Assembly (NCBI RefSeq): GCF_008831285.2
Contig: NC_045140.1
Span: forward strand, 16,056,370-16,120,369
Reading direction: 5' to 3'
Length of the DNA: 64,000 nucleotides
Origin: Nymphaea colorata
Taxonomy: Eukaryota; Streptophyta; Magnoliopsida; Nymphaeales; Nymphaeaceae
In this document: in pieces, positions 2,084 through 52,198 of the stretch
Numbering within the stretch: position 1 is the first letter of the stretch
Layout: each line of letters starts with the position of its first letter
Notes under the pieces: model-generated
What the model was told of the DNA's origin: nothing
Databases searched by the model: none
What the model saw: the letters and a program-made list of their open reading frames with translations, nothing else
Made by a program: the position numbers and the translations under genes

Positions 2084-2659
2084 CTAATTCTCTGAAATGG
2101 AAGAGGAGGAGGAGCAATAAGAAGAGGAAATCTCCATTGACCCGTAATAGAGCAGCTCCTGTATCATCTGTTCAATGTCCTCATCATCCAAATTTTCATA
2201 ATTCTCAAGCGCTATCTCCTTCCCACTGCCTTCATCCCCATTGACCCCGTGTGGTTCGGCGACCCCTTCGCGGCGCCCGTTCCCGACCTTCTGCCGGTTC
2301 TGACTCGCAAGATAGCACTTCTGCAGCTTTGCTGTTATGCTTGCCGAGAACGCGCTTGGGCCAGAAGAATTTGGATCCGGTGGGAAGTTTGTTCGAGCCA
2401 GAGGGCCTGACATCAGACGAGCCGCTTCATCATAAGCTCTCGCAGCGTCCTCCGCCGTCTCGAAAGTTCCAAGCCAGATTCTTGTCTTCCTGCAATTAGA
2501 AGAAGAAGATAACTCAGCAATTCGTTCACATGCGCTCAAAGTTACTGCATTTTTGTGCAGAAGGGGTTGAAGGACTTACAGCAAAGGGTGTCTGATCTCA
2601 GATACCCAAGAGCCCCAGTGCCTCTGCCTTACACCTTTGAACCTCTGTTGCCTTGCCAT
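2084..2659 (-). CDS. ERF003: AP2/ERF transcription factor, ERF003-like, two exons
   Basis: A nuclear DNA-binding factor of the plant ERF family, expected to bind GCC-box or related promoter elements through one AP2 domain. Exon 1 is 2580-2659 and exon 2 is 2084-2489, joined across a 90-bp intron with GT (2579-2578) and AG (2491-2490). The join gives 161 residues. The AP2 domain covers residues ~6-63: [20 protein letters not shown] lies in exon 1, and [19 protein letters not shown] plus RTNFP in exon 2. The intron splits the Leu codon just before KTRIWLG. The start MARQQ, the KTRIWLG variant and the acidic C-terminal [12 protein letters not shown] motif match Arabidopsis ERF003 better than the related SHINE/WIN1 wax regulators, which have KRRIWLG. 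A Ser-rich tail ends the protein. Length is near the family norm (ERF003 is about 180 residues). It looks intact. The 5' leader and promoter lie at higher coordinates. Confidence 0.93.
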
Positions 2660-2770
2660 GGATGAAACTTGACTTCAAAGAGCTCTTTCTGTTTGGTTTT
2701 CTCTGTTTCTGCTTTCTTCTAAGGCAGGGAGACCTGAATGCAGTGGTGTGGGGCGGGGGGCGAGAGTGAG

Positions 2771-2779
2771 CCTTTTGTA
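2771..2779 (-). promoter_or_regulatory. possible TATA-like element of the ERF gene
   Basis: On the minus strand the sequence TACAAAAGG lies about 112 nt upstream of the ATG, followed by CT-rich leader-like sequence. It is a weak match to TATAAA and would place transcription start at about 2740-2750. That would exclude a longer upstream ORF beginning at 2837. Transcript data are needed to confirm. Confidence 0.22.
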
Positions 2780-3007
2780 GGCGAGAAGTTGAGATTCTCT
2801 TTACAAAGCTGGGCACCGCCTTGTTAAAAAATCCCATTTTTCAAACTGATATAACTGTCCATGTGTCCAAAATGACAGAAATACCTTTCACAGATATGCC
2901 CTGAACTCAGACCATCAATGGCGACCCACTAAGGCTTTCTCCAAGAACTGATGTGAACCAAATTCAGAGTCCTAAAAGACAAGCGCTTCTACAGTAAAGT
3001 GGGTCCG

Positions 3008-3197
3008 TTGATCATTCCTTTATAAGATTCAATACAGGAGATCAACCACAGTGATCTTAGTCATCTGTTTGACGCCTCTCTTCAGTATGGGCTACCGGAT
3101 AACTTGATCATTCCTTTAAGATTGAGTACAGGAGATCAACCACAGTGGTCTTAGTCATCGGTTTGACGCCTCTCTTCAGTATGGGCTACCGGATAAC
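3008..3197. repeat. 96-bp tandem duplication
   Basis: Two adjacent copies, 3008-3103 and 3104-3197, both begin TTGATCATTCCTTTA and end GGGCTACCGGATAAC. They differ by a few substitutions and a short indel. No coding or transposon signature is visible. Confidence 0.9.
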
Positions 3198-6100
3198 GGC
3201 ACCGCCTTGGGAGATTTTATGTTGAGAAGGGTAGCATTGACAAATATGGAAGCATTTATTCTTGGGGCCCAACTCATTTGTTTTCACCATGTGGAAGTGT
3301 AGCATGAGTTAATATGGGGGCTACGATGCCTTTAATGCATGTTGCCTTTTTTTAGTCATTTATCTGTTGAAAATTTAGACCTTGGAAAAAGTTAGCAGAG
3401 GAGAGGGGGCATGGACCGTCTGCTTCTGGCCAGGAAACATCAGCAAAACGCTAATTTAAGACCCTCGAATCTTCTCTGGTTCTGTTCTCCTATCAATATT
3501 GGTAATGAGAATAACAGTGGATGATAAATGTTGATCATCATGACGACAGTGATATATAGATTTAGCGTGTTCCTTGATTGCATTATGAGCGCCTGGGAGT
3601 ACAGTGCCTGAGCATATGGCACCCGGCTCTACATTCAAAATTGAAGTGTGCACCGTTCCTATCGTTGCTGCCAAAACAACACCGGACCCCAGAGGCAAGG
3701 GGAATGGAGGGCTTTCTGGCCTTTTTTTTACCAACCGTGGATTGTTAACCTCTGGCTCATCCAAAATATATATAGATGATGGATTTTGAGTGACGGACTG
3801 ACCCAGAAACCCTGGTGTTTCACATCCTGCTCCATCTTGATCGCTATTTACTGCGCCACCCTTCTAACAGTTGAAACAAGGAAGATGCTTAAGAAATAGG
3901 GTGCATAAGTGACCAGAAACCAGACCAATGACTGCCATCACCAATCCTGCCCTTGATTGAGCCACAAACCGTTTGACATATATTCAAGTTGCCTGGTAAC
4001 TATTTGGTATGTCATAAATGCAGTCTAGCCCTACCCAGGCTGCTGTGCCATGAAGGTGGACCAAGTATTCAAGTTCAACCATTGTTTGAAGCTCTGGTTC
4101 AACCAGCACCTGTCATGTGCCTTGCCACTTCTTGTCAGGTGGGCTGGGCCTATGTGTCTGCGGCACATGTTGCAATACACATGGTGGATGCTGGTTCGAT
4201 GTAGCCCTCCAAAGGTATACGAATTTAAGTACCTCAGGAGCTCAACCAGCATGGAGTAAAATCTTGGATGCCAGTAGTTTGGAGCCTTCTCAAGATTTTG
4301 AGGACACTGTGCTGAAATTTTGTGATACTTGGTAACACGACTCATCACAATTATAATTTCTATTCTTCCTTGCCGAAGCTGCTGTTTGCAGTTTGCTGTT
4401 ACTTAACAAAATGTTTTGTTCTAAAGCAGAAACTTATTGTGCAACTTCCAAGGACTTAAAACAATTACAGCAGTGAATGGGTCAGGGTGATACTACGTAT
4501 ATTGGCTAGAATTCCAAAGCTGATGTCTAACCCATGTTATTTTTGTCCCTTCCTTTTGGTTTTAATGGTTGAATAGAAGCTCAATGAATGATAAAGCTAT
4601 CGTTCCTTATAGTTATTAGGGGAGGAAAATGAATATAGTATTCTTCATGTCAGCAGATCCCACGTGGAGCCAAGGGCAGAAGCTCCAATTCCTGTCAAAG
4701 CTTCTCAAAATAAAAGCCAATTTTTTAATGAAGAATAAGCTTGGGAACTCAACATGAACACATGCACCCATCTTCAGCCCACATGAAATGCTCTTCCTTG
4801 CCCACACTTTCTCCTTTGTTTTTCAACGATCAACATCACTTCCATTGCCGCGTCATTTCTTTCTGCAAACCCGAGTCTGTGGGAGATAACCGATCAAATT
4901 TGACAAGCTGCAAAACACACCTACCATTCTCGAGCACAATATACTCTACCTGTGCCTTACACCGTATGTGCTTTTTCATAAAACACAACACAAGGAAAAC
5001 TGTTGATGAACATATTCGAGTTCATATAAAAGTAGCAATTCGAGCTTTTGCTACTGATCTTGACATATGAAGACCTATGAACCAATTCAATGAATCTTTT
5101 GCAGCAACATTTGTCATTAAAGCTCCCCGAGGGGGATTGGTGCAATAACGGGGCAGGGGCTGGTAAACAATCATCTTCCATTTCAAACTTTCATGGCATC
5201 AACTCTTTGTTCTGCCAAAAAAAAAAAAAAGTATCGATCGAAGCATAGCAAACTCATCATGTCAAAGCACCGGAAACAGCCATGAAGATTCAGGCAACAA
5301 CTTTTCCTTCCATCCACTAAAAAAACAAATGTCTTTAAAGGTCATTAATTAAAAGGTCATTTCCTTCCACACACGCACCCCTTGTAGAACGTAAATGAAA
5401 AATTTTCGGTCGTTTTGTATGTCGGATGCCCATACACAATCAAAAGACCAATATGTTGGCAGCAATTATCTCTTATCTAGAATGCCAATTTGGCAGCGAC
5501 ATGGGGCCTCGCAGAATTTTTCACCAATCTGAAAAACTTTGACCAAAGTCTTGTTCACATCATGCCAATCACGTCCACGAAACCGCCGCAGCAATTGGTG
5601 GTGCCTCTCAGGAGCTATTCATGAAATCATTGGTCTTCTTCCGGTTTTTTTTTTTTTCCTTTTGAACAGCAAAAGGTTGAGCGTTTCATTGGAGTTGTTA
5701 TGGTTCTGACAACATAAGGGCCACTCTCATGAACATGGTCATGTTCCATGTGAGGCCAAAAATCCCCTTAACCACTGACATCAATCTATTTACATATAGT
5801 TTTGTTAATTAATTTCCCCTATTTTTGGTCCCCCCCAAGCAATCATCACTGAAACAAATCAAAACCAAACTGCATCTTCTTAAATCAAGCTGCCCCAGTT
5901 ACCTGTCTCCAAGTGCGCAAGTTGGAGAGGATTCCTTCGAAGCATTCCCTTGTTTTTCGTTGCTTTAACCAAGTTGTGTTCAGTCAGGTTCCTATCAGCC
6001 TATGCCAAGGACTCGGCTATTGAACTCTCCCCTTTATTCGTCTTAAACTCCAATCCCTTAACCAGGTCCAAAGAGCTCTTTCTGTTCCTTTACAAGGAAA

Positions 6101-45639: not shown

Positions 45640-46754
45640 TGTATCTCGGGCGCTGATGCTAACGCTATGAAAGGACAAGAGACTAAGATGTTGGGCATCA
45701 AATATCTTTATACACCCTAATGCAAACAATGTTCAATAAGTTAAATCAGATACAAAACAACCAAAAAATGAACAAGTAATCAGATAGATATAAGAGGTGT
45801 TTTTCTTTATATACTATTTGAGATGTTAATATGTAGGGGTAGAGTCAAGGTAAGACCCGCTTAGGCCTTGGACGCATCTCATCTTTTTTTTTTATATATA
45901 TAAAAAATTACGTAAAAATTTTACTTTTTATATATAAAAATTTCAAAAAATGATATTTCGGCCCTAATCAATTTTAAAAACTTTATCTCGGTCCTCTTCA
46001 TGAAAAAATTATAATTTTGCCCTTGTTAATATGCATGAAAAGTTGAATATAAAACGGTAAAAAAATAAAAAATTTAGTTATGGATCCAATACCATTTTAT
46101 CGAATATCAGTGGCTCTTGTTTCACGAAAACAATGGAAAATGTACTACAAATAAAACGATCAAAATGAAGATAAGTTGTGAAATTTTGTTGGAAATAAGA
46201 TTCACCCAGCATCATCAAGGGGCTCTGCGTTGAAAACGAGGGTTCGTTCCTTGATCTCTCCAACTCCAAGTGGTCGCCGGTCCCCGAGCCGTAAAACGAA
46301 AATATCTAAAAGATCAAGTTGAAAAACGCCAAATACGAGAAACGTCGAACACTTTTCTGTAACTTTTCTTAAAATAAAAAAAATCTGGCTGGCCCGAGGA
46401 TATTTGTATGCATAGATGTCGAAATATGCAGCAGGGGCTTGACCTTTCGATGACCGCCTCATAAGCTCGTTACGTTACGCCCACCACGTTTGTGATTTTT
46501 ATCGGACTCTCCCTCTCTCTGACGTTGTAAAAAACGGTAAGGGAACCGTATCGGTCGCTTCGTTACGATGCGGAGTGATATTGCGAACATGCCTAGTCTC
46601 ACATTCTCGTCTTATCCCATCGCATCTCGCCCCGGCCGATAAAGGGAGAAATCTCCGGAAAAGAAATAGGAGAAAAATCGGCCCAGAAGACCCCTTCTCG
46701 TTTTGATCTTCGCTTGAGGTGCGGACCCTGTAACTAGCTTCTCTCTATCGGAGG
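45640..46754. other. upstream region of ZTL, promoter not pinpointed
   Basis: AT-rich DNA to about 46100, then GC-richer sequence from about 46480 with CT tracts (CTCCCTCTCTCTGACG) typical of plant core promoters and leaders. There is no clear TATA box near the expected start, as is common for broadly expressed genes. Minus-strand frames here (46078-46462) show no domain. Confidence 0.35.
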
Positions 46755-46784
46755 ATGGGTTTCGAGATCGATTCCGGTGGATGA
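46755..46784 (+). promoter_or_regulatory. uORF 1 of ZTL leader, peptide MGFEIDSGG
   Basis: ATG-GGT-TTC-GAG-ATC-GAT-TCC-GGT-GGA-TGA. First of four nine-codon upstream ORFs sharing the ending DSGG-stop. It lies 478 nt upstream of the main ATG. Whether it is in the mature leader depends on the transcription start and on any leader intron. Confidence 0.6.
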
Positions 46785-46888
46785 ACGGAAAGGCGCGGAA
46801 GAAATTGGGGATTTTGCGTCCTGTCTCTTTCTCTTGCGGAGTTTTCCTGGCGGTTTCAGCTACGGTTGCTGCGGAATTTCTCTCTGCG

Positions 46889-46918
46889 ATGGGTTGCCAG
46901 TTCGATTCTGGGGGTTGA
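46889..46918 (+). promoter_or_regulatory. uORF 2 of ZTL leader, peptide MGCQFDSGG
   Basis: ATG-GGT-TGC-CAG-TTC-GAT-TCT-GGG-GGT-TGA, starting 134 nt after uORF 1. The Ser and Gly codons differ from uORF 1 only at silent positions. Confidence 0.6.
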
Positions 46919-46999
46919 AGAATAGGAGGGAGAAATAGGCAAGTTTGCGCAGTTTCTTTGTGTTTATTTTTTGTTTTGTGGTTAGGCGAAGTAGCTCTA

Positions 47000-47029
47000 A
47001 TGGGTATGCAGATCGATTCCGGCGGTTGA
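47000..47029 (+). promoter_or_regulatory. uORF 3 of ZTL leader, peptide MGMQIDSGG
   Basis: ATG-GGT-ATG-CAG-ATC-GAT-TCC-GGC-GGT-TGA, starting 111 nt after uORF 2. A T-rich tract ending GTGGTTAG just before it (46968-46985) could serve as a 3' splice site, so this part of the leader might begin an exon. Confidence 0.6.
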
Positions 47030-47118
47030 AGGAGTTGGGGAAAGCGAGGAGTATCGTGGAATTTTTCGTAAGCTCTTTTATAGATTTGGTGTTTTGAGGG
47101 GATCTTTTATAGCATTCC

Positions 47119-47148
47119 ATGGCTATTGGGGTTGATTCTGGAGGTTGA
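47119..47148 (+). promoter_or_regulatory. uORF 4 of ZTL leader, peptide MAIGVDSGG
   Basis: ATG-GCT-ATT-GGG-GTT-GAT-TCT-GGA-GGT-TGA, starting 119 nt after uORF 3 and 114 nt before the main ATG. It is the most diverged in residues 2-5 but keeps DSGG-stop. Confidence 0.6.

Positions 47149-52198
<5,050 letters not shown>

Follow-up and report, generated by a model that had tools for sequence, protein, structure and literature searches.

Four upstream open reading frames with a common DSGG ending precede a ZTL-like gene of Nymphaea colorata and may damp its translation

The uORF of mammalian AdoMetDC, MAGDIS, is very short, and its last residues matter at termination; it is present as a single copy and responds to polyamines. 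The smORFs of the insect tal/pri/mlpt RNA share one motif. The tal/pri/mlpt peptides act together with an E3 ligase (PMC10635573, PMC6428570). Conserved-peptide uORFs (CPuORFs) are reported from under 1% of transcripts and include another F-box/kelch gene (HG28, At1g67480; PMC3426882). In class I, the conserved part lies next to the stop codon, and 65.4% of the class I CPuORFs of Arabidopsis are reported to show the −16 reads that mark termination stalling (PMC9305500). A clock gene with several uORFs is TOC1 of Arabidopsis, itself a ZTL target, whose translation is restrained by four of them (PMC9122824).

The window analyzed here (the whole stretch of N. colorata DNA, 64 kb) contains four ATG-to-TGA frames of ten codons each in the genomic DNA 5' of an intact LOV/F-box/kelch (ZTL-like) gene (Table 1). 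Like the class I plant CPuORFs (e.g., HG17, CPuORF46/47), they are short, precede the main ORF, and are conserved beside the stop, but they comprise nine residues, occur four times in a single leader, and are conserved between copies instead of between species. With the TOC1 leader, they share the number of AUG uORFs, a roughly similar spacing, and the position ahead of a plant clock gene; for TOC1, however, repression and noise buffering were studied via AUG mutants, and the parts of that paper at hand do not mention a shared peptide (PMC9122824). The AdoMetDC uORF is equally very short and differs in its sequence, its single copy, and its polyamine response. Several short frames with one motif, here seen in DNA, are also the hallmark of tal/pri/mlpt, but there the products are the peptides themselves, which work in trans, whereas the present array precedes a long main ORF; a message free of any long ORF, as in the tal/pri type, was not found here, since the ZTL coding region follows from 47233. 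Judged by its sequence, the array is strongly non-random and appears to be constrained at the peptide level, and its novelty would lie in the iteration of a CPuORF within one leader. In the parts of the reports at hand, CPuORFs have so far been described by conservation between species. One uORF present four times, with only its last four residues kept amid wide silent divergence, amounts to a natural test, within one leader, of which residues are important.

Table 1. Features of the uORF array, the adjoining ZTL-like gene, and the related fragment on C2 (window coordinates unless noted otherwise)
Feature	Coordinates	Strand	Remarks
Evening-element-like motif AAAATATCT	46299..46307	+	about 450 nt 5' of uORF1
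Cumulative GC skew minimum	46633	.	computed from 46300; rough proxy for transcript start
uORF1, MGFEIDSGG-TGA	46755..46784	+	AUG context A at −3, G at +4
Extra AUG frame	46781..46918	+	45 codons; ends at the uORF2 stop, hence also ...DSGG*
uORF2, MGCQFDSGG-TGA	46889..46918	+	AUG context G at −3, G at +4
uORF3, MGMQIDSGG-TGA	47000..47029	+	AUG context C at −3, G at +4; internal in-frame AUG at 47006
uORF4, MAIGVDSGG-TGA	47119..47148	+	AUG context T at −3, G at +4
ZTL exon 1	47233..47453	+	main ORF start, start of LOV/PAS domain
ZTL exon 2	50566..52198	+	rest of LOV, F-box, kelch repeats, stop codon
ZTL fragment on C2	about 21,972,890-21,973,399 (C2)	minus	matches 46913-47411 at 81%
Same fragment, L012 (reverse complement) coordinates	2101-2610 (L012)		

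The four frames had been listed in a first-pass annotation, and their coordinates, peptides, codons, and stops were recovered exactly as given there. The peptides follow the consensus M-[GA]-x-x-[IFV]-D-S-G-G, in which position 5 is Ile, Phe, or Val and position 3 is Phe, Cys, Met, or Ile. Asp of the core is encoded by GAT in all four copies. In uORF1 to uORF4, respectively, the Ser codons are TCC/TCT/TCC/TCT, those of the first Gly GGT/GGG/GGC/GGA, and those of the second GGA/GGT/GGT/GGT; the stop codon is TGA throughout. From stop to next AUG, the copies are 104, 81, and 89 nt apart, and the uORF4 stop is separated from the main AUG by 84 nt. Six AUGs occur in 46643-47232, and the frame of each terminates at a DSGG stop; they are the four uORF starts, the AUG at 47006, and that at 46781. 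AUGs located farther 5', e.g., at 46568 and 46589 (ending at 46642), lack such a stop. Throughout the 64 kb window, the six-frame translation contained no further DSGG*, SGG*, or DSG* end, and the four uORFs are the sole carriers. The −3 context is good for uORF1 and uORF2 and poor for uORF3 and uORF4; the main AUG has G at −3 and at +4. The AUG at 46781 sits in GGATGA and overlaps the stop of uORF1 (ATGA stop-start overlap), because the second Gly codon of uORF1 is GGA and that of the other three is GGT.

The gene 3' of the array is, from its predicted product, ZTL-like, as had been annotated: the two exons, joined at 47453/50566, encode 617 residues with one terminal stop and the sequence GRNCRFLQ across the junction, and the open joined frame covers PAS/LOV, F-box, and kelch. 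A domain search with exon 2 (queried from 50588) returned the F-box and the kelch repeats, the end of the PAS fold remaining below the Pfam cut-off. The best solved relatives of the protein are Adagio proteins 1 and 2.

The shared endings are not due to chance, which was ruled out by shuffling the leader. In 5000 dinucleotide shuffles of 46643-47232, no more than two ATG ORFs had the same last four residues (three shuffles), and the situation in the real leader, where these residues are common to all four distinct stops, was never reached. When only the last two residues were compared, three sharing ORFs appeared in 7 of the 5000 shuffles and four in none. Genome-wide, the patterns covered were TCN Ser with TGA, AGY Ser with TGA, and TCN Ser with TAA/TAG, i.e., all versions but AGY with TAA/TAG. 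The exact pattern M-x4-D-S(TCN)-G-G-TGA occurs six times in the genome, four times in the array and twice as a solitary match, and its reversed control pattern was absent. The AGY-serine version with a TGA stop had no match in the genome; the TCN-serine version with TAA/TAG had three, none of them at ZTL, and its reversed control had one. By eye, a clear adjoining gene was not evident at the two solitary TGA matches. A recent tandem duplication was rejected as well, Tandem Repeats Finder having reported no array over the four frames and the silent sites and flanks having diverged; one unrelated row was reported by the program at 47955.

Selection has acted on the peptide rather than on the DNA. 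Summed over the six pairs of copies, 13 of 20 synonymous and none of 52 nonsynonymous sites differ in codons 6-9 (DSGG), which bears out the earlier statement that substitutions in the core are all silent. In codons 2-5, the same sums are 5 of 15 synonymous and 25 of 57 nonsynonymous sites (pN 0.44, pS 0.33), and this front half is not conserved by the pN/pS measure. For codons 2-9 together, pN is 0.23 and pS is 0.51 between copies of one genome, so that the codon-level Ka/Ks comparison across copies suggested by the annotation is below 1. Two traits of class I CPuORFs are present: a Ka/Ks below 1, here between copies, as expected from purifying selection on the peptide, and conservation concentrated at the C-terminus, where the residues of codons 6-9 are invariant. 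The similarity is mostly confined to the frames: in 15-nt bins taken in register, the mean identity is 0.67 and 0.86 inside the frames vs. 0.19-0.43 outside. The DNA between copies had been described as far less alike, which agrees with local alignments of the flanks (70 nt up- or downstream, 12 comparisons): 11 of them had a p-value of 0.074 or more against shuffles, and the sole comparison that beat the shuffles was that downstream of copies 1 and 2 (p = 0.004). Peptide-level selection on the DSGG ending is therefore well supported by the comparison of the copies.

Five matches to ZTL exon 1 were obtained in the genome; besides ZTL itself, they comprise an FKF1-like gene (C3), a fragment of ZTL (C2), and two weaker matches. 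The main frame of the C2 fragment is broken; the fragment is presumably free of selection and was hence used as a relaxed control. It lacks the core in all three copies that it covers (uORF3 MGMPINSSG, uORF4 MGIGVGYGG, uORF2 internally deleted to MEG); uORF3 and uORF4 still have their start and stop codons. Within the cores of these two frames, the fragment has acquired four nonsynonymous and one to two synonymous changes vs. none and at least five in the array (Fisher's exact test, one-sided p = 0.024-0.045, with small counts and polarity assigned by parsimony). Should the fragment represent the ancestral state, the functional lineage would have changed a single residue, Gly2 of uORF4 to Ala. 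Because the match ends inside exon 1, the fragment is uninformative on leader splicing, and a match to exon 2 was not found in the surrounding 10 kb. The surroundings (L003) contain a neighboring stretch of DNA duplicated about 1.06 kb apart, as seen by eye, which suggests that they are repeat-rich. At the FKF1-like gene, a DSGG-type end was not found on either strand in the 7 kb around the gene; many AUGs lie 5' of its LOV exon (L013 reverse complement, 2464-3960), none of them with a DSGG end. One of the two weaker matches (L004) presumably resembles phototropin. In viral contigs, 14 stretches fitted the pattern of relatives of ZTL exon 1, none of which was confirmed.

The composition of the leader fits a transcript start just 5' of uORF1, where the cumulative GC skew reaches its minimum; the skew itself is strongly positive (up to 0.66) over 46725-47324, i.e., the leader and the start of ZTL. 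If transcription started upstream of 46568, extra AUGs without DSGG would come ahead of the array. Four acceptor-like sites were found in the leader with a simple score (46859, 46985, 47083, and 47179), and the spacers are U-rich. GTAAGC was seen by eye at 47068, and its pairing with the acceptor-like site at 47179 would remove uORF4. Splicing of the leader could remove some copies. The donor score listed neither this GTAAGC nor the real donor of intron 1 at 47454, and because the latter was missed too, the score rules no leader intron out.

We consider the chance somewhat better than even that the array is a repeated conserved-peptide uORF unit which damps ZTL translation via poor termination and leaky scanning. 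Scanning ribosomes would start at uORF1 or uORF2, or leak past or reinitiate to reach uORF3 and uORF4. Most of them should be caught by uORF1 and uORF2 because of the AUG contexts of these frames (A/G and G/G at −3/+4). Any route would end at the same nascent D-S-G-G just before the UGA, and the nine-residue peptide, still within the ribosome, may slow or spoil termination at the Gly-Gly-stop. Few ribosomes would then arrive at the ZTL AUG, and ZTL output would be low and even; with four copies, each stop lying 81-104 nt from the following AUG, ribosomes could hardly evade the brake. Stop-adjacent conservation is the mark of class I CPuORFs, and a repeated, peptide-dependent termination brake is therefore favored, although no known stalling peptide was matched. 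We infer that all copies are transcribed and translated, that termination stalls, and that ZTL is repressed. The earlier interpretation of a uORF cassette controlling the translation of a clock photoreceptor appears partly supported. If it holds true, a peptide-dependent translational brake would act on ZTL.

AUG-initiated uORFs tend to repress, and translation of the array alone might lower ZTL, the peptide being irrelevant and the shared ending a relic of tandem duplication. The favorable start contexts of uORF1 and uORF2 would suit such a passive role, as would the uORFs of TOC1, which buffer output when examined as AUG mutants (PMC9122824). A relic is not expected to keep its core, however, and DSGG is intact in all four copies despite widely diverged flanks and silent sites. 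When neutral drift was simulated at the observed synonymous distance, M-x4-DSGG* was retained at a frequency of 1.25e-4 per copy (200,000 trials). Gene conversion is disfavored as a cause of the identical cores because the silent sites would have become alike too, and altogether a passive array is improbable. We give little credence to the idea that the repeated 31-mer is a protein-binding site or a structured RNA in which the reading frame is incidental. Asp is always GAT and the stop always TGA, so that some columns are fixed beyond the needs of the code; yet an in-frame AUG and a stop bracket every copy, and variation in the 18 columns of ATG, DSGG, and stop is limited to three, which coincide with the fourfold-degenerate sites of the Ser codon and the two Gly codons (chance 1/816). 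A structured RNA is not supported for the leader (46700-47260), whose fold was no better than that of shuffles (z = +1.02; 83 of 100 shuffles were at least as stable).

The frames may also lie outside the mature message, either because transcription starts downstream or because all of them are spliced out, and their conservation would then have another cause. The U-rich spacers, the acceptor-like sites, and the GTAAGC are compatible with this, but a constraint at the peptide level is hard to explain without translation and the switch in GC skew is located 5' of uORF1, which leaves such an arrangement quite unlikely. A polycistronic message might instead yield a bioactive nonapeptide acting in trans, possibly by binding ZTL or its substrates. 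Several copies of a short shared motif with a free C-terminal Gly-Gly adjoin the gene of an E3-ligase receptor, and the ZTL kelch, by its match (1.8e-58) to the Pfam KLHDC2/KLHL20/DRC7 kelch model, is akin to KLHDC2, which recognizes C-termini. Propellers of the KLHDC2 type are reported to bind their targets by the C-terminal carboxylate, the blade that carries the anchor differing between members (PMC11568203), and in insects, Ubr3, an E3 ligase, is the partner of the Pri/Tal peptides (PMC10635573). Despite these parallels, we regard trans-acting peptides as very doubtful. At the residues that we take to form the R-S-R anchor of KLHDC2, the aligned ZTL blade has E, P, and W vs. R, R, and S. 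A second blade, read by eye, contains RSWH, but C and L replace the arginines; the other blades were inspected by eye. A C-degron pocket of the KLHDC2 type (R/F-S-R anchor) is absent from the ZTL kelch at the aligned positions.

The annotation had known of no such system for ZTL, and among the matches listed in our literature search, there is likewise none that describes a conserved-peptide uORF for ZTL. Searched by name, the word ZTL has no occurrence in the main texts of three CPuORF papers (PMC7106846, PMC9305500, and PMC3426882). Repeated or tandem uORFs were not found in the literature search either. The ESUCA screen relies on BLAST searches with individual uORFs (E<2000) for its comparison of species (PMC7106846), and frames of nine residues may be hard to catch by screens of this kind.

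A further reading, to which we assign a low probability, concerns growth signaling. In Arabidopsis, ztl-3 plants are reported to have more S6K with a longer half-life, and ZTL overexpressors very little S6K (PMC11288760). Passage of four near-identical peptide brakes would demand a high reinitiation capacity, which TOR-S6K1 signaling reportedly raises. A nutrient-driven increase in S6K might then permit ZTL synthesis, whereupon S6K would be removed by ZTL and the gate set back at dusk, i.e., a negative feedback between TOR-S6K1 and ZTL. TOR and S6K1 reportedly promote reinitiation on uORF-containing mRNAs, and the level of ZTL affects the clock period. If true, a fourfold peptide-coding cassette would give rise to a translational loop linking growth signaling and the clock, and ZTL would be a read-out of the capacity of the cell to pass uORFs.

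Farther upstream, the motif AAAATATCT was noted, which resembles the evening element, a motif with a role in the clock. The sequence AAAAATCT is located nearby, at 46379.
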